Below are positions 51,371 through 59,017 of a stretch of DNA of 64,000 nucleotides, piece after piece. The position numbers and the translations under genes are program-made. Every line of letters starts with the position of its first letter. The stretch's first letter is position 1. Below the pieces are notes generated by a model that was not told the origin of the DNA, searched no databases, and saw only the letters and a list, made by a program, of their open reading frames with translations. This stretch comes from Planococcus kocurii. GTDB lineage: Bacteria > Bacillota > Bacilli > Bacillales_A > Planococcaceae. The stretch spans positions 62,001-126,000 of the forward strand of contig NZ_CP013661.2 of assembly GCF_001465835.2 (NCBI RefSeq), in the 5' to 3' direction.

Positions 51371-51555
51371 TTCCAGTCTTTTCAACAAAAAATCTAATTA
51401 AATTTTTTAGGGAGTTTCACAAAATCCTTCAGATCAGTTTGTAGCTCATTGATTTTTTGATTATGACTCATGCTCAACTCGATACTCTACTTAAAAGTCA
51501 GTGGTAAAACGAAAAATTAGTAACTACACGTTTAGGAGTTTGAAAACCTTTCAAG

Positions 51556-51672
51556 TTATTGTTTCCCCTCAAGTTGCTTTATTCTTTTTTCTAGCTTTTC
51601 AACTTTGGAAGTATTAAGTACTGCTATAGCTAAGATTATCATCATTAAAGAGAATAAAAATATCGTCTCCAT
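51556..51672 (-). CDS. Small membrane protein with amphipathic tail (38 residues)
   Basis: ATG at 51672, 6 bases after AAGGAGGAG. The peptide is one helix (TIFLFSLMMIILAIAVL) and a charged coiled-coil-like tail (SKVEKLEKRIKQLEGKQ). The strong ribosome site and composition suggest a real micro-protein. Confidence 0.6.
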   Translation of the reverse strand: METIFLFSLMMIILAIAVLNTSKVEKLEKRIKQLEGKQ

Positions 51673-51803
51673 CAGTTCTCCTCCTTACATATCATTATTT
51701 TAACTAGATATAAATTGATAAAAATGAATAATTTGTTAATTGAATTATAACAATATTTCTTAAGTATAAATACCTGAAACTAAAATCAACGTAGTACAAA
51801 TAA

Positions 51804-51834
51804 AACCGTTCGTAAAAGTACACTTTTCCGAACG
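51804..51834. repeat. Dispersed palindrome family B
   Basis: CCGTTCGTAAAAGTACACTT with complement TTTTCCGAACG; near-perfect palindrome. Confidence 0.65.
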
Positions 51835-51863
51835 CTTGCAAAATAGCTTTAAAATCCAAAAAA

Positions 51864-51909
51864 GAGCGTTCGTAAATGTGTCAAAGCACTTTACGAACGT
51901 TCTTTTTTT
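51864..51909. terminator. Terminator built from palindrome family B
   Basis: GAGCGTTCGTAAATG and its complement CACTTTACGAACGTTC form a 14-bp stem followed by T7 on the plus strand. A further TACTTTTACGAAC arm follows at 51915. It may shield or close the 3' side of the CBASS operon. Confidence 0.65.
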
Positions 51910-52027
51910 CTTAATACTTTTACGAACATATACAGTAAGACTCAAATCGCAATACCTTTTTTAACTTGAAATATCAAAGTAGTAAAAACTGGTTTTCTAA
52001 ATAAAAAGACAATCGTAAGTAACGGCT

Positions 52028-52546
52028 TCAACGGCTGTCCAGCTCTTTAGAACCACCGAATTCATCTACTACATCGAGTTGGATGAATTTCTTATTTTTC
52101 GGAAACACGTAAGTACTATATTCCCAAGATTTATATCTACCGCCCACTATCAGTAATACAGGTTCGGGACATTTATAATTCTCATTACACGAGATTTCAC
52201 TCATTTGCTTAATATCTTGATTACTTAGAGTTGAACTACTATCGGGATGGTAATGCCATTCCCCAATATAGTATTCATTTTTTTTATACCACAATTGATC
52301 TAACTTCTTTTTCACACCGTTAATTCCTCTTACGAACCATGTAGGTCCGCTTTTTGAATCTGGTGGAGCTGACATAAACTTAGAAATAATTGCGGAAGTA
52401 TATTGCTCATTGTAGAAACCAATCAATATACCGCCTGTTTCATTTGGATAGGATGACTTGCAGAGTATCTGAATTTCATCTAGTACTATATTAGGAATAA
52501 CTACTTTAAAATTTTGATTTTCACTAGTAAAATTTAAATCATTCAT
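52028..52546 (-). CDS. cap3: Cap3: JAMM-type isopeptidase of a type II CBASS system
   Basis: 172 residues from the ATG at 52546, 5 bases after GAGGT and overlapping the Cap2 stop by 8 bases; an in-frame ATG at 52558 lacks a site. JAB1/MPN fold with catalytic Glu in NETGGILIG (Glu36), zinc His pair in EWHYHPD (98 and 100) and Asp111, the full H-x-H-x10-D set. In type II CBASS, Cap3 removes the CD-NTase from its conjugates and so tunes Cap2 activity. Last gene of the four-gene operon. Confidence 0.9.
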   Translation of the reverse strand: MNDLNFTSENQNFKVVIPNIVLDEIQILCKSSYPNETGGILIGFYNEQYTSAIISKFMSAPPDSKSGPTWFVRGINGVKKKLDQLWYKKNEYYIGEWHYHPDSSSTLSNQDIKQMSEISCNENYKCPEPVLLIVGGRYKSWEYSTYVFPKNKKFIQLDVVDEFGGSKELDSR

Positions 52547-54359
52547 TGAATACCTCATTATGAATTAGATTAATTCCTTTGAAGTTTCCGTCGCTATTTT
52601 CTTGTTCATATACACTAAATGTTGAAGATTCTCTTTCACCATATATTGATTCAAACTTTTTAATAGCAGTGGCAGCTAAAATCCACACATCATCAGCTCT
52701 AGCAGGAAACAGTGGGTGCCAACAACCCAACCCTTCCCTCGGTAGTGGTGTTTCGTTGAATTGAGTACTTTCTTCGGCTAACCAGGAATTAACACATTTT
52801 CTAAACAGACTATAATGAAAATAAGAGCCGTTATTACTAAAAAGAAATAGCCTTCTACCCGCAAATCCTAGCGAAATAGAAATAAATCGCTTTGTATCAG
52901 ACCACTGATGTTGTTGCAACTGTATTAAAACCTCATCTTCTCCCGTACAGTCTAGTATCACATTATATTTTATTAACTGTTCAAAGTTATTTTCTAGATT
53001 ATATTTTAACGTCCCAGGATATGATTTTACCTTAGAGTGAAGTGAGGTTTTATTTAGTCGCTTAGCCAGCGCCTCTGCTTTATTATTTCCTATTTCAGTT
53101 AGTAACAAGGTATGCCTAGTAAGGTTTCCCATTTCTAAATTGTCGTGATCAACAATCCCTAGCTTCTCTACACCTGCTCTGACTAATAACTCTCCAACAG
53201 AAGAGCCAAGTGCCCCAGCACCTATTAGCAATATTCTTGAATCGCTAATTGTTTTAGGTAACATGCCGCGGCTCATGACAGCATTTTTTGACCAATTGAA
53301 TGAATGCATCCACCTTACTTTACTTCGGCTATTAATAGTAACTTTTTTTTCATTTTTGTTGCTACTGTTAATATCTAACTTAGCTGTTTTAGGGTTGAGA
53401 CTGTTATCAATTAAAAGAGGAATTTCTATTCCTTTCCAAAATATTTCAGTGTATTCTTCATTCAATTTTTCTTTGATAGGGAACCCAATCAGTAGTATGT
53501 GAACTAATTTCCCTTTGCATTTTTGCCTTTTTTTAATCTGGCGCAGAATACTTCCAAGTTCTATTTTTTGACTATCACATATTTCTGTAAGTTCACTCCA
53601 AGTCAGTGGAGCTTGCCATGGCTTAAGGTGGGGGATTTCTTTTAATAATATCCAAGAACCTATAATTCTATTATCGTTTTTAGCTTGAGAAGATTGATAT
53701 CCCCATTCAGTATTTCTTAAACATAATCCGTTTAGTTTCTTAAACTCTCTTACTAAAAAAATTCCACTATGTAGAGCTGAGAAAGTGGCAATTCCATATT
53801 TAACTCCAATTGAATTCCAAAACGCAAATGATCTCGAGTCTTCAGAAAAACCAATTTTTAATGAAGAAAATTCAGGAAAATCAATCAACTCAAAGAGTTC
53901 GTCTTGAGAAGTGAGTTTACTTTTTGAAGCAGCTATTAACCATTCTATGGCTCTTATAATATGCCAAGATAAACGAACTTCTTCTTGGTGTGGCTCTTCA
54001 TTAGGAACAAGCCTACCTAATGTTGTTACATTTGAATCTAGACATAATAAACCGCTTCTCCATGGGTAATCATTATTGCCTTCGTAATTGTACATCTGAT
54101 GTGGAAATGTTTGAGTTAAGCTATTTTGTTTTGACGGGTAAAAACCAATATTTCCTCTTGGATAATCATCGTCAATTAATATATACCATTCGGTATAACT
54201 ATTTATTACAGCAGATTCAATTTCGTCCGAGTATAACGAACAATGAAGAACCCATTTTTTTATGGGTTCTATCCACCTTAAATCATCGATTATCTCAATT
54301 CCTTCTACGAATTCCGTAGCTCTACGTCCCGTAAGTAGAACCTCATTAGGAATTTTCAT
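52539..54359 (-). CDS. cap2: Cap2: fused E2-E1 ubiquitin-transfer-like enzyme of type II CBASS
   Basis: About 606 residues. The N-terminal third is E2-like with catalytic Cys in WRSGLLCLDS (about residue 106). The C-terminal third is an E1/ThiF adenylation domain with LLIGAGALGSSVGELLVRAG, VDHDNLEMGNLTRH and a cysteine candidate in GLGCWHPLFPA. Cap2 activates and attaches the C-terminal glycine of the CD-NTase to targets, priming it against phage. It starts at the ATG at 54359 (GGTGAGG before it) or the GTG at 54368, which overlaps the CD-NTase stop by 4 bases. Coupled to Cap3 downstream. Confidence 0.9.
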   Translation of the reverse strand: MKIPNEVLLTGRRATEFVEGIEIIDDLRWIEPIKKWVLHCSLYSDEIESAVINSYTEWYILIDDDYPRGNIGFYPSKQNSLTQTFPHQMYNYEGNNDYPWRSGLLCLDSNVTTLGRLVPNEEPHQEEVRLSWHIIRAIEWLIAASKSKLTSQDELFELIDFPEFSSLKIGFSEDSRSFAFWNSIGVKYGIATFSALHSGIFLVREFKKLNGLCLRNTEWGYQSSQAKNDNRIIGSWILLKEIPHLKPWQAPLTWSELTEICDSQKIELGSILRQIKKRQKCKGKLVHILLIGFPIKEKLNEEYTEIFWKGIEIPLLIDNSLNPKTAKLDINSSNKNEKKVTINSRSKVRWMHSFNWSKNAVMSRGMLPKTISDSRILLIGAGALGSSVGELLVRAGVEKLGIVDHDNLEMGNLTRHTLLLTEIGNNKAEALAKRLNKTSLHSKVKSYPGTLKYNLENNFEQLIKYNVILDCTGEDEVLIQLQQHQWSDTKRFISISLGFAGRRLFLFSNNGSYFHYSLFRKCVNSWLAEESTQFNETPLPREGLGCWHPLFPARADDVWILAATAIKKFESIYGERESSTFSVYEQENSDGNFKGINLIHNEVFNE

Positions 54360-54364
54360 AGACC

Positions 54365-55426
54365 TCACCCAAATCTACCGCCTGAAACAGAAGAGGTCGG
54401 TTCGGTTCTTGGAGTAAAACTATCTTGTGATTTTTTCGTATTAGAAGGTGGTTCTGGAAACTTTGAGCCAAATAATTCTCTCCATAATTCAATGCTCTCC
54501 ACCTTATCGGTACTATCTAAAGCTTTTCTTGCAATCAACGCAGCTTCAATCACTAAATCATAAAATTCTTTATATTCTTCATCACTAATACGTTTAAAGA
54601 CGTCATGTTCGGGGACTCCATGATCTTTCAAAAAAGGCTTTTCAGGATATTCTTTAACAATATTTTCTAAAGTCAGTGTAACTCCTTCAGCAATCGATCC
54701 TATGCCATCCGGACAACTTAAACCTACAAAATGTTCTAAAGGATATCCTTTAGGATACTTAGGGTTGGGGTTTAACTTTTTCCACCACTTCAGAGCTTTC
54801 ACTACATTTACGTAATTCCTATTACAATCCGCATTTTTATTCCAGGTCCACTTAATTTGTGCTAATGGATCGGTTTTTTCCCATTTTCCCGCTTCTCTAT
54901 CCGGAATTAATAAGGGTTCCGTTTTCCATTCTTTTTGATAGTCTATGCTCCAAGATTTAGTAAGAGCCCAATTCTCCAAGTCTTCTATCGAGTAAGAAGT
55001 CGATATGCTATTTGTTGTAAGTAACTCTTTTTGTGTCTCTGAAGGTGCAGATGTAATTACTAAGTCAAGCTCGACATAGCTAAGTTCAATACCAATAGAT
55101 CGCCCTTGCATTTTATATTTCCCTTTGTAATGTTTTTCTAAGAAAGGGACAAATTTATCTAATGCTTCTTGAGGAGAGTACTGCTCTGTATCTAACGTTG
55201 TCACAACAATCACATCTACGTCTGACTTATTTCCATTTTTAGATCGAACAGCGGTCGCCCTTCTATAACTTCCTTGTAAGAATGTGTTAACAAGAATCGA
55301 AGACAATTCTCCATCTTCCAATAATCTCTTTCGTAAAATACTGTGGCCTTTTTTTAAATCGTTTATTTGATTATCTGTTAATCTTATACCTAATAAAAAA
55401 TCATTAAAATAAGATTTTACTTCCAT
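54365..55426 (-). CDS. CD-NTase: CBASS cyclic-oligonucleotide synthase
   Basis: 353 residues from the ATG at 55426, 9 bases after AAGGGGA; an upstream in-frame GTG touches that site. Nucleotidyltransferase core: QGSYRRATAV (GS at 52-53), NKSDVDVIVV (metal Asp69 and Asp71) and SYVELDLVI (third Asp, 121). The helical C-terminal half and a flexible Pro/Ser/Thr-rich tail end in SVSGGRFG. The terminal glycine is where Cap2 enzymes conjugate CD-NTases. On infection it makes a cyclic di- or trinucleotide that activates the SAVED effector. The clade cannot be set without alignment. Confidence 0.92.
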   Translation of the reverse strand: MEVKSYFNDFLLGIRLTDNQINDLKKGHSILRKRLLEDGELSSILVNTFLQGSYRRATAVRSKNGNKSDVDVIVVTTLDTEQYSPQEALDKFVPFLEKHYKGKYKMQGRSIGIELSYVELDLVITSAPSETQKELLTTNSISTSYSIEDLENWALTKSWSIDYQKEWKTEPLLIPDREAGKWEKTDPLAQIKWTWNKNADCNRNYVNVVKALKWWKKLNPNPKYPKGYPLEHFVGLSCPDGIGSIAEGVTLTLENIVKEYPEKPFLKDHGVPEHDVFKRISDEEYKEFYDLVIEAALIARKALDSTDKVESIELWRELFGSKFPEPPSNTKKSQDSFTPRTEPTSSVSGGRFG

Positions 55427-55449
55427 TTTATGCACTCCCCTTCATGTAT

Positions 55450-56976
55450 TTAAGGTAACTCAATAGTTGGAAAATAATCTTTTGCTATTTCAAAGTCGTA
55501 TTCATAGAGAGTTAACTGACCAAAGTTTCTTGAAAGTTGTCCTAAGAAGAACCAAAAACCATTTGGGCCAGCTCCAAAAAAGTGGTATCTTCTTTTCCTA
55601 TCCTCTTTTTGAAGTCCATTTAAAGTTTTTGATATCTCGTTAGCAAGATACATAGCATGGTTTCCATCGCGTATTGAATTGAAACTCGGAGATTCTTCAA
55701 AATAAAATCTAATAATAGATTTAGCAGACAACTCTTTGGTTTCAATATATTCTCTTACATCTTGAACAGCTGGATGTGTCATTTCTATTACTATAACAAT
55801 ATCACTGCCATTTTCATCAATAATATCATGGCTAACTTGCCATAATGGATATTGCTCTTTTAGCACCTTAGAGTTTGATCGCCAAATCGCTCTTCCATCC
55901 AGCCCTTTTTGAATAGGAACTGCTTTCACTCCAGATTTTGGATCAAGAAGAAAACCGGTTGTAAAAGCAATAGTTGAATGAGTATCTAAATAAATGCAAT
56001 AAGAGTTACCTTCTGCTAAACTACATCCTATAAAATCTTCTACAGCCGCTTTAATATTTACATTCCAGCTAAATTCATCTTTTAGATATCGACCGTCAAA
56101 ATAATGTAATAAACAAGTCATTGTAGTTGTATCGTTCTCTAGATTTTCAGCTCTTCGAATGAAGCTCCTTATTCCAACAGGAACTTCTTCCGTTAACATA
56201 ATGTTGCGACCTGTCCACAAATCTTCAGATTTACATATTTCTATTAACTTTTCTTTATTAAATTTCGTTTGATCTTCTTGAAACAATCGTTGAAGCAAAT
56301 TGACATATGGGTTAATACGTTGTGAGAGATCGATAGGTTTTAATCCAACCGCCGATAGTTGTCCATTTAAAATCCTAAGGAACGGTTCATATTGATGAAA
56401 ATTATTCCAAATTCGAATAGCTTTTAAAACACTTTTCAATTCTTCGTCTTCTTTAATTTCTAAATGATTTTTCAATTTTTCTCTTACTTGAGCTATATAC
56501 GATCTGCTTTTTCCATCAAATAAAATTTCTTCTTTGAAATATCCTCCTTTAGTGTCAACAATTTTTAATTTCGCTAATTCGTCGTCCGGGTGTATAGCCC
56601 ATGGCGTAACTAAGACTGCAACCCCTAATTCATTGTCTTTATTCAAAACTGGCAACGCTACTTTAACCTTTTCTAGAAAAGAATATTTAGAAGCATTGAT
56701 GAAGTCCGGATTCATTAAGTTATCGAGGGTTATACTATTTCGATAATCCACATGATATTTTACTTGGTAATACTCTTTGTGAATTAGCTTCCCACTTATA
56801 TCCCTTATAGGTTTCTTATAGCGAATAACTATATCATCAAGAGATTTTATTTCCTGATCTTCATAAGAGATAGTATCTACATTAGAGTGATCACTTAACA
56901 TATCACACGCTTTTAACCAAAAGAAAAGTATTTGATACTCGTCCCCTAAACTCCTAGCTTTTATCGGATTCGCCAT
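55450..56976 (-). CDS. cap4: CBASS effector: Cap4-like nuclease with SAVED ligand sensor
   Basis: 508 residues. The N-terminal ~200 look like the DUF4297 (dsDNA endonuclease) domain: ARSLGDEYQILFFWL, then SLDDIVIRY and EYYQVKYH give the D...Q-x-K catalytic set (Asp47/48, Gln71, Lys73). The C-terminal ~200 form a SAVED domain with RRYHFFGAGPNGFWFFLGQ and LTLYEYDF. Cap4-type effectors degrade DNA after a cyclic nucleotide binds SAVED, killing the infected cell. First gene of the operon; GAGGTG precedes the ATG. The gap to the CD-NTase gene is 23 bp. Confidence 0.88.
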   Translation of the reverse strand: MANPIKARSLGDEYQILFFWLKACDMLSDHSNVDTISYEDQEIKSLDDIVIRYKKPIRDISGKLIHKEYYQVKYHVDYRNSITLDNLMNPDFINASKYSFLEKVKVALPVLNKDNELGVAVLVTPWAIHPDDELAKLKIVDTKGGYFKEEILFDGKSRSYIAQVREKLKNHLEIKEDEELKSVLKAIRIWNNFHQYEPFLRILNGQLSAVGLKPIDLSQRINPYVNLLQRLFQEDQTKFNKEKLIEICKSEDLWTGRNIMLTEEVPVGIRSFIRRAENLENDTTTMTCLLHYFDGRYLKDEFSWNVNIKAAVEDFIGCSLAEGNSYCIYLDTHSTIAFTTGFLLDPKSGVKAVPIQKGLDGRAIWRSNSKVLKEQYPLWQVSHDIIDENGSDIVIVIEMTHPAVQDVREYIETKELSAKSIIRFYFEESPSFNSIRDGNHAMYLANEISKTLNGLQKEDRKRRYHFFGAGPNGFWFFLGQLSRNFGQLTLYEYDFEIAKDYFPTIELP

Positions 56977-57420
56977 AAATAATATTTCACCTCATTATTG
57001 TCAAACTATTCTTTAATTTTCTCATAATATCCATTATTATTCCATACATTGAAAATGTAGTTTTATTTAAATTGCAAATCACATCTTCAAAAATTATTCG
57101 TTGTTCTAAAACTTATACTCAAGTTAAGTTATCTATTAGTTTTACTTGAAGATAACGACATATTAAAATTACATTTTAATAAATTATTAATGATTGAGTT
57201 AGACTACAACTTATATATTATCGGCGAATATAATAACGTATTAAATTTAATAAAAAAATAAGTATTAGGACAGTTATGCGTAGCTATTATACTATCGACA
57301 TAGGAGTAAGATTATGAAAATATGTTATAATCCGTTTAACAGAACCCACCACGCCTCTTCACAATGCGGACCACGGTGGGTCTTATTACGATTTCGTTAT
57401 TTTGCTGTGGGGGTTCGGTC
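56977..57420. other. AT-rich promoter region between the CBASS operon and the nuclease-fold gene
   Basis: About 440 bp, very AT-rich up to 57300, so it probably carries the CBASS promoter (no box assigned with confidence). At its right end, GC rises and a hairpin (ACCCACC at 57344-57350 against GGTGGGT at 57375-57381) lies 40 bp before the downstream plus-strand start. Confidence 0.45.
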
Positions 57421-57819
57421 ATGAACATTAACAAGTTTAACGAAAATTCAACCGGCCGGTTATTGGTTGGAAAAATAGATCGAGACAAGATTAATAGGCT
57501 AACAGGAATTGCTTTCCTTGAAGAAGAAGTCTTCATCTATCCGGGTGCCATCAAACATATTAATCGCAATCATCCACTTGTATGGAATCAGTACAAGAAC
57601 GAACTTCCTTCTATTCTTTTAAACCCCGATTATATCGGCAAAAATCCAACAGTTCCGAATAGCGTCGAACTCTACAAATTTGTTAGCCAGCAGCTTCTTC
57701 TGGCGGTTAAATTGGACCCGAGTGGATATTTGTTTGTGTCAACTTTTTATGTGCTCGATAATGCAGAACATAAAATCAAGAAGAGGCTGGCAAGCGGGCG
57801 TATTCAATTATATACATAA
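57421..57819 (+). CDS. PBECR-like nuclease-fold protein
   Basis: 132 residues from the ATG at 57421 (GGGGGTTCGG before it; a longer start at 57364 lies inside a hairpin). TGRLLVGKIDRDKINRLTGI, EVFIYPGAIKHINRNHP, DYIGKNPTVPNSVELYKF and KKRLASGRIQ match the phage-Barnase-EndoU-ColicinE5/D-RelE-like (PBECR) fold proteins often found in phages and mobile elements. The basic/His residues around KHINRNHP are candidate catalytic residues. It is next to a possible structured RNA and a recombinase gene. Confidence 0.72.
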   Translation: MNINKFNENSTGRLLVGKIDRDKINRLTGIAFLEEEVFIYPGAIKHINRNHPLVWNQYKNELPSILLNPDYIGKNPTVPNSVELYKFVSQQLLLAVKLDPSGYLFVSTFYVLDNAEHKIKKRLASGRIQLYT

Positions 57820-57879
57820 GCCGATAGCTTGAATAAAACACGTTTCGTGTTATGATAAAGATAAGAAATGATTAGCTAT

Positions 57880-58026
57880 GAAGAATCTTGATTAGGTAAT
57901 ACGGGTCATTAAGGTGGGAAAGGTTCCCCACGCGCTCACTATGAGTTATCAGAGATCCCGGATACGCCGCCCGGGTAATAACCCCCTAAATAAGTAAGCC
58001 TCTAACTTCGGTTAGAGGCTTTTTTC
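57880..58026 (+). ncRNA. Candidate structured RNA with terminator
   Basis: Downstream of the PBECR-like gene. A GC-rich, non-coding 110-base stretch contains local stems GTGGG/CCCAC (57914-57931) and CCCGG/CCGGG (57957-57974). It ends in a strong terminator: AAGCCTCTAAC, TTCG loop, GTTAGAGGCTT and T-run. It may be only a long 3' UTR. No known RNA family was recognised. Confidence 0.4.
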
Positions 58027-58067
58027 TTTGCATGTCTTATTTTCTTATAACCCGCATCCTTATAAGT

Positions 58068-58622
58068 TTACTGTTTTTCCAGATAACGATAAATGGTGGT
58101 ACGAGAAACGCCCCATCTTTCAGCCACATCTTTAATCGGTGTCCCACCTTGAATCAGCGAACGCATCATTTCAATATCTTTCGGTCCAAATTTCTCCGGA
58201 CGTCCCCCCAAACGCCCTCTTGCTCGGGCAGCTGTCCGTCCTGCAGCCGAACGTTCCTCAATCAAATTCCGTTCAAATTCGGCAAATGCCGCGAACAAGT
58301 GAAACATCAGTTGGCCTGTTGCATTGCGTTTATCCATCGTCAAGTTTTCCTGCAAACTATGGAATGCGACACCCCGTTCATTTAGGGCATTCACCAGTTG
58401 AATCAAGTCCTGCATGTTTCTTCCCAAGCGATCCAATCGCCAAACTACAATCGTGTCCCCTTCGCGAGCATACGAGATGGCTTCTTCTAAACCGGGACGT
58501 TGCTTTTTCGTTCCACTCATTTTGTCGTGAAATGTTTTATCGCAGCCATAAGCTGCTAACGCATCCAGCTGTAAATCCAAATTTTGTAATCCTGTAGACA
58601 CACGCGCATATCCAATGAGCAC
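58068..58622 (-). CDS. Serine recombinase (resolvase/invertase type)
   Basis: 184 residues from a GTG at 58622, 3 bases after AGAGGG. Starts LIGYARVSTGLQNLDLQLDA with the catalytic Ser in ARVST, VVWRLDRLGRNMQDL (active-site arginines), FAEFERNLIEERSAAG and a C-terminal HTH (PIKDVAERWGVSRTTIYRYL). It is a small Tn3-resolvase/Bin-type enzyme acting on short DNA sites. It lies beside the CBASS island and the PBECR-like gene, suggesting mobility. No res site was identified. Confidence 0.92.
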   Translation of the reverse strand: MLIGYARVSTGLQNLDLQLDALAAYGCDKTFHDKMSGTKKQRPGLEEAISYAREGDTIVVWRLDRLGRNMQDLIQLVNALNERGVAFHSLQENLTMDKRNATGQLMFHLFAAFAEFERNLIEERSAAGRTAARARGRLGGRPEKFGPKDIEMMRSLIQGGTPIKDVAERWGVSRTTIYRYLEKQ

Positions 58623-59017
58623 TCGATCCCTCTTCTCTTCTTTTTCAATGAATTCATTGTACCATAAGATAAAAACAGTGTGGTTAATGTACATAGAATA
58701 CTGTACAGGGTTTTATAACACGAAACGCATGAAAAAAGATCCTTTTCAAACCGAAGAGTGCTGTGTTCAGAAAAGGACCGAGTTTTGGAAGATAGATTAC
58801 AGATAACAATCAAAAGAATTAAGAATAATCAATAAATAAAACTTGAAGCATTAGTAATATGGTATACTTTTCCACATATTACATAGGAGGTACAATCCAA
58901 TGGTGAGAAAATAATCGGAGAGAATCTTAAAATGTTTTATTAGTTTTTAAAATACATATATGGATTTTCTCTTTCATCGAATTAAGATCTAAATCTAGCA
59001 TAGAGGAGAGATATACA
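58623..59017. other. Intergenic region with a vestigial start
   Basis: About 395 bp. At 58886 AGGAGG precedes an ATG followed by only three codons and a stop (MVRK), probably a remnant. Nothing else recognised. Confidence 0.4.

Follow-up and report, generated by a model that had tools for sequence, protein, structure and literature searches.

The closest described relatives of the locus analysed here are two type II cyclic oligonucleotide-based antiphage signalling systems (CBASS). In that of Enterobacter cloacae, the cyclase CdnD02 is accompanied by Cap2, Cap3 and the effector Cap4. That of Bacillus cereus WPySW2, from the same phylum Bacillota as the locus described below, has the same four gene types with Cap4 (Nuc-SAVED) as effector, and the B. 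cereus type II CBASS with Cap4 protects B. subtilis (available text of PMC11153139). According to the accessible part of PMC10097602, in whose set of systems the effector is CapV or Cap4, Cap2 conjugation needs a C-terminal Gly or Ala, this residue is required in cyclases paired with Cap2 and Cap3, and Cap3 deconjugates. The accessible part of PMC13424991 in turn describes the first XGSX residue and the lid-2 residue as telling enzymes that make cAAG (QGSI, Gln) from those that make cA3 (Ser/Thr, His). Here we describe a four-gene operon on the minus strand (52028-56976) of a 64,000-nt stretch of Planococcus kocurii (NZ_CP013661.2, positions 62,001-126,000 of the forward strand), hereafter the window, whose positions serve as coordinates throughout.

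In transcription order, the operon encodes Cap4 (nuclease-SAVED), a clade D CD-NTase (CdnD), the E2-E1 enzyme Cap2 and the JAMM protein Cap3, in frames listed at 55450-56976 (508 aa), 54365-55435 (356 aa), 52539-54368 (609 aa) and 52028-52558 (176 aa). All four proteins matched PADLOC CBASS profiles (best E-values 3.6e-57 to 8.6e-204), the Pfam profiles for SAVED, SMODS, ThiF and Prok-JAB were each matched, and solved homologues cover most of the length of Cap4, CdnD and Cap2; the packed minus-strand genes and the CBASS identities proposed by a sequence-only reading were thus borne out. Four genes in the same order are also found in Halobacillus sp. A1 (L002; L numbers denote loci and G numbers genomes) and Alkalicoccus urumqiensis (L003), judged by frame position and visible similarity, with Cap4 73% and 61% identical to that of the window, and given this identical order and the PADLOC E-values we do not regard the operon as a chance arrangement. 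Judged from its sequence, the operon is an ordinary, apparently intact member of a well-studied system, type II CBASS with a DNA-cutting Cap4 effector. We assign a probability of about 0.92 to its being a full type II CBASS operon whose signal is most likely of the cAAG type, with DNA degradation by Cap4 and tuning by Cap2 and Cap3.

As listed, the Cap4 and cyclase frames are separated by 14 bases, the cyclase and Cap2 frames overlap by 4 bases, and those of Cap2 and Cap3 by 20. The cyclase likely starts slightly inside its frame, at the ATG at 55426 (353 aa), behind AAGGGGAG, and Cap2 probably does so at the ATG at 54359. As the latter falls just after the cyclase stop, the overlap of stops and starts proposed for the operon would hold for Cap2/Cap3 only. 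On the 3' side, a strong hairpin region with a U-rich sequence after the stem (51800..51930, minus strand; minimum free energy -40.6 kcal/mol, z -5.3) is probably a terminator, possibly bidirectional. Palindrome-based terminators had been proposed on this side; the hairpin was not among the calls of a strict terminator scan.

The residues regarded as catalytic are those established for these families, and they were found, as claimed, in all four proteins. Cap4 (55450..56976, minus, 508 aa), with an N-terminal PD-(D/E)xK-type nuclease and a C-terminal SAVED sensor, matched the PADLOC endonuclease effector PDLC00752 over residues 1-508 (5.9e-190) and aligned over residues 1-504 with the solved Cap4 7yib (2e-54), its top match in the Protein Data Bank (PDB), listed without species. 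The predicted SAVED domain was detected with both Pfam PF18145 (2.8e-33) and NCBIfam NF033611 (6.5e-36, above the cut-off), and the nuclease residues D47/D48 and K73 are present, K73 aligning with a residue that is Lys in 7yib and Ala in 7yia. Cap2 (52539..54368, minus) matched the E1-E2 profile PDLC00848 (8.6e-204) and Pfam ThiF (2.3e-23), its top structural match being the solved Cap2 7to3_A (4.6e-84), likewise listed without species, and it carries C109 (E2), GAGALGS and C549 (E1). The solved chain has Ala at the positions aligned with C109 and C549, presumably by engineering. The isopeptidase Cap3 (52028..52558, minus) matched the JAB profile PDLC00890 (3.6e-57), Prok-JAB PF14464 (3e-9) and the peptidase 9ild (1.3e-6), with E40, H102-x-H104, S112 and D115 in place.

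The cyclase CdnD (54365..55426, minus) matched PDLC00822 (1.2e-154) and SMODS PF18144 (1.5e-23), and its top PDB matches were the clade D cAAG synthases 7ljm (1.2e-100) and 7d48 (5.4e-97), chains of the Enterobacter/Salmonella type that share QGS and the lid Gln with it. The GS...DxD...D triad is represented by GS52-53, D69/D71 (DVD) and D121 (LD). A housekeeping nucleotidyltransferase was rejected, since the listed matches were to CD-NTase/SMODS families apart from weak general or chance ones (for PADLOC, in 25 of 38 rows), which upholds the CD-NTase assignment. The protein, 47.2% identical to Salmonella plasmid relatives, ends in GGRFG; its last residue is therefore a Gly, in accordance with the Gly/Ala rule, whereas the E. 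cloacae cyclase ends in Ala (available part of PMC10097602). At the nucleotide-selecting positions it has QGSY (51-54), lid-1 T185 and lid-2 Q190, and QGSY, the lid-1 Thr and the lid-2 Gln are kept in all six compared relatives, while the cA3-making B. cereus WPySW2 enzyme has SGSY and a lid His (accessible part of PMC13424991). Because QGS and the lid Thr/Gln are the cAAG determinants of that study, the signal predicted for the window cyclase is most likely 3'3'3'-cAAG and not cA3 as in the B. cereus system.

By analogy with the studied relatives, from which activity, signal, conjugation and phage defence are extrapolated, phage infection would switch on CdnD to make a cyclic trinucleotide, most likely 3'3'3'-cAAG. 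Its binding by the SAVED domain would cause Cap4 to self-associate, the nuclease domain would degrade DNA and the infection would be aborted. Using the C-terminal Gly of the cyclase, Cap2 would attach this enzyme to cellular proteins and thereby prime or tune it, and Cap3 would take the conjugates off.

Several observations weigh against this reading. The NCBIfam models for the cyclase, Cap2 and Cap3, in contrast to SAVED, were matched below their cut-offs (CBASS_cyclase_b with 61 bits at a cut-off of 200). The DUF4297-like nuclease suggested for Cap4 gave no literal match to PF14130 (DUF4297/Cap4_nuclease) up to an E-value of 10, and among three scanned Cap4 relatives there was one weak match (0.046, below the cut-off). 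The solved Cap4 7yib likewise has no PF14130 match, and the window protein aligns to it from residue 1, so the miss reflects a narrow profile; PF14130 was dropped as a discriminating test, and the Cap4 label is more safely based on homology to Cap4 along the whole protein, so that of the proposed nuclease/SAVED effector the SAVED domain and the Cap4 homology stand. The cAAG prediction rests on three positions, and at position 4 of XGSX the window cyclase has Tyr where the Enterobacter and Salmonella enzymes have Ile. This Tyr is shared with the B. cereus enzyme, and the studied Bacillota type II CBASS with Cap4 found in the literature uses cA3 (available parts of PMC13424991 and PMC11153139), which would favour the same kind of system signalling through cA3. 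The first motif residue and the lid-2 residue, both Gln, nonetheless match the cAAG synthases and not Ser/His. In sequence, moreover, the Enterobacter and Salmonella enzymes are by far the closer ones to the cyclase, with E-values of 1.2e-100 to 5.1e-95 as against 6.2e-37 for 9sa4, presumably the B. cereus enzyme (its entry is labelled CD-NTase only); we consider a cA3 signal unlikely. Finally, a promoter scan of 51400-58200 gave 20 promoter-like matches against a shuffle mean of 26.6, none of them convincing. The lack of a clear promoter would suit an operon that looks intact and is decayed or silent, unexpressed or devoid of activity, as would the sparse occurrence of the cyclase, present in 2 of the 46 genomes of the genus (one of them its own), which implies frequent gain and loss. 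The four full-length frames, the kept catalytic residues, the full-length profile matches and the terminator-like 3' hairpin all speak against decay, which we regard as very improbable, and a complete, cAAG-type CBASS is preferred.

Beyond the genus, cyclase homologues were found in 3 of 261 order genomes (at 1e-20, again with its own counted), in 53 of 72,556 plasmid records and, as one weak match, in phage records. Such a scattered occurrence would be in keeping with a defence cassette that is mobile. At two further loci (L005, L006) the Cap4, cyclase and Cap2 frames are adjacent, and the stretches stop short of Cap3. The Alkalicoccus CdnD (L003:9544-10623) ends in GRFGCQ and thus runs two residues beyond the Gly that terminates its closest relatives; this extension might be trimmed by Cap3 in the manner of a ubiquitin precursor. 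Two Priestia plasmids (L007, L008) carry a cyclase 72.7 and 73.3% identical to that of the window with Cap2 and Cap3 downstream, but in place of the nuclease-SAVED Cap4 they have a divergently transcribed alpha/beta-hydrolase-SAVED fusion (L007:3957-5441 and L008:4058-5542, both minus), which by sequence comparison is an effector swap beside the same CdnD-Cap2-Cap3 core. Cap2 of the P. koreensis plasmid (L008:7077-8907) is annotated as two separate coding sequences and may therefore be broken.

As for the surroundings, relatives of the M3-type peptidase and signal peptidase genes on its flanks are present in all 46 genus genomes, counted by gene and not by site, and the guanine-cytosine content of the operon (0.32-0.36, against 0.29-0.40 around it) is uninformative. 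A serine resolvase gene lies at 58068-58694 (minus), in a region that shares 77-88% identity with plasmid DNA from Planococcus, Salimicrobium and Exiguobacterium, among others (best 8 of 1673 plasmid records), a likeness that suggests that plasmid-derived DNA adjoins the CBASS operon.

Between the operon and the resolvase, outside CBASS, a gene for a PBECR3-family predicted RNase (57421..57819, plus strand) lies upstream of Cap4 and diverges from it. Behind it come a skipping-rope RNA (RF02924; 57904..57983, plus; 65.6 bits, gathering score 36.7), to which the resolvase is convergent, and then a terminator-like hairpin (57996-58021). An abiF RNA motif (RF03085; 57345..57381, plus; 38.0 bits, gathering score 37) ends about 40 nt ahead of the PBECR3 ATG. 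The same motif precedes PBECR3 at L029 (G009; 35.6, below the gathering score of 37) and at L039 (G035), in the latter case with a PBECR3 fragment only, and at L012 and L014 the unscanned frame behind it looks Abi_2-like by eye. The RNase-fold reading of PBECR3 is based on VIA-align rows with middling Z values; a Foldseek search of the PDB with the PBECR3 model gave no match under 1e-3, and the PBECR3 alignment had no match among PDB sequences. In PHROGs the window protein matched one family without assigned function, and two viral relatives matched none. When 30 skipping-rope RNAs were aligned with MAFFT, RNAalifold gave only a single helix of 4 pairs, each with compensatory changes; the full Rfam structure was not re-tested.

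The pairing of PBECR3 with the skipping-rope RNA recurs widely (window, L028-L034, L037, L038, L040, L071-L077, L080, L082, L084, L086, L087, L093-L107). With the PBECR3 protein as query, 13 places turned up in 12 of the 261 genomes of the order, the window counted, and at 10 of the 13 the RNA lies within about 140 nt downstream, nine times on the same strand and once (L038) on the opposite one. The remaining loci are L035, where a contig end cuts the downstream side, L036 and L039, a 23-residue fragment. At the genome level, the RNA was present in 10 of 12 PBECR3 genomes versus 9 of 249 others (Fisher p 1.7e-11, relatedness ignored). In a phylum sample of 398 genomes, 21 carried PBECR3, at 25 places in all, and 15 of the 24 loci scanned (all but the window) had the RNA: 13 of 14 where PBECR3 exceeded the Pfam cut-off in frames shorter than 200 aa (L082 and L092 among these being pieces of one gene), 1 of 6 for frames of at least 500 aa, and 1 of 4 where PBECR3 was below the cut-off. 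The RNA was also found at 5 of 5 PBECR3 loci fetched from plasmids (out of 8 records), at the one locus fetched from phages (out of 6 records) and at 7 of 7 in viral contigs, these seven having been found with alignment A1 as query and none with a single PBECR3 sequence. L099 and L105 are not independent, their proteins being identical as printed. In Streptococcus phage phiJH1301-1 (L099:1474-2198), a PBECR-like spbA and the RNA lie between the lysin and an annotated att site, a moron-like position. L041 (G009) has the PBECR3-RNA-resolvase order of the window. The RNA also occurs alone, as at L042, L045 and L047 in three same-genus genomes it lies near a helix-turn-helix-like gene (by eye) and has no PBECR3 neighbour; at L045 a similar resolvase follows it.

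The pair may represent an unrecognised, type III-like nuclease-RNA module carried by plasmids, prophages and chromosomes. In type III toxin-antitoxin systems, repeats of the RNA antitoxin lie upstream of the toxin gene with a terminator between them (available part of PMC5086642). The window has one skipping-rope copy, and two of the seven viral loci have two in tandem behind PBECR3 (L103:2442-2628, L107:2372-2617), resembling such repeats. We did not file the pair as a type III system, since the RNA lies downstream of PBECR3, at L038, L071 and L093 on the opposite strand, and not as upstream repeats. We give even chances to a reading in which a second two-part system sits beside CBASS in a small defence island. 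In that system the RNA, its gene lying downstream or convergent, would bind and restrain the PBECR3 RNase in a type III-like manner and so serve to maintain plasmids or prophages or to defend against phages; the identity of the CBASS operon is unchanged by this reading. The parts of the literature on skipping-rope, PBECR, abiF and type III systems that were covered (including PMC5512222 and PMC12373285) contained no link between skipping-rope and PBECR3, and with this partial coverage we claim no novelty in print.

The operon adds a predicted cAAG-type Gram-positive type II CBASS. Its main use would lie in the contrast with the studied Bacillus system and its cA3 signal, since the roles of signal identity and Cap2 conjugation could be compared in one host; in the Priestia relatives, which keep this cyclase core next to a hydrolase-SAVED protein, the effector has been swapped naturally. 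More surprising as a lead is the RNase-RNA pair adjoining the operon. If the proposed pairing is true, the skipping-rope RNA, so far an orphan family, would gain a partner and a testable job, and this would matter more than the operon itself.

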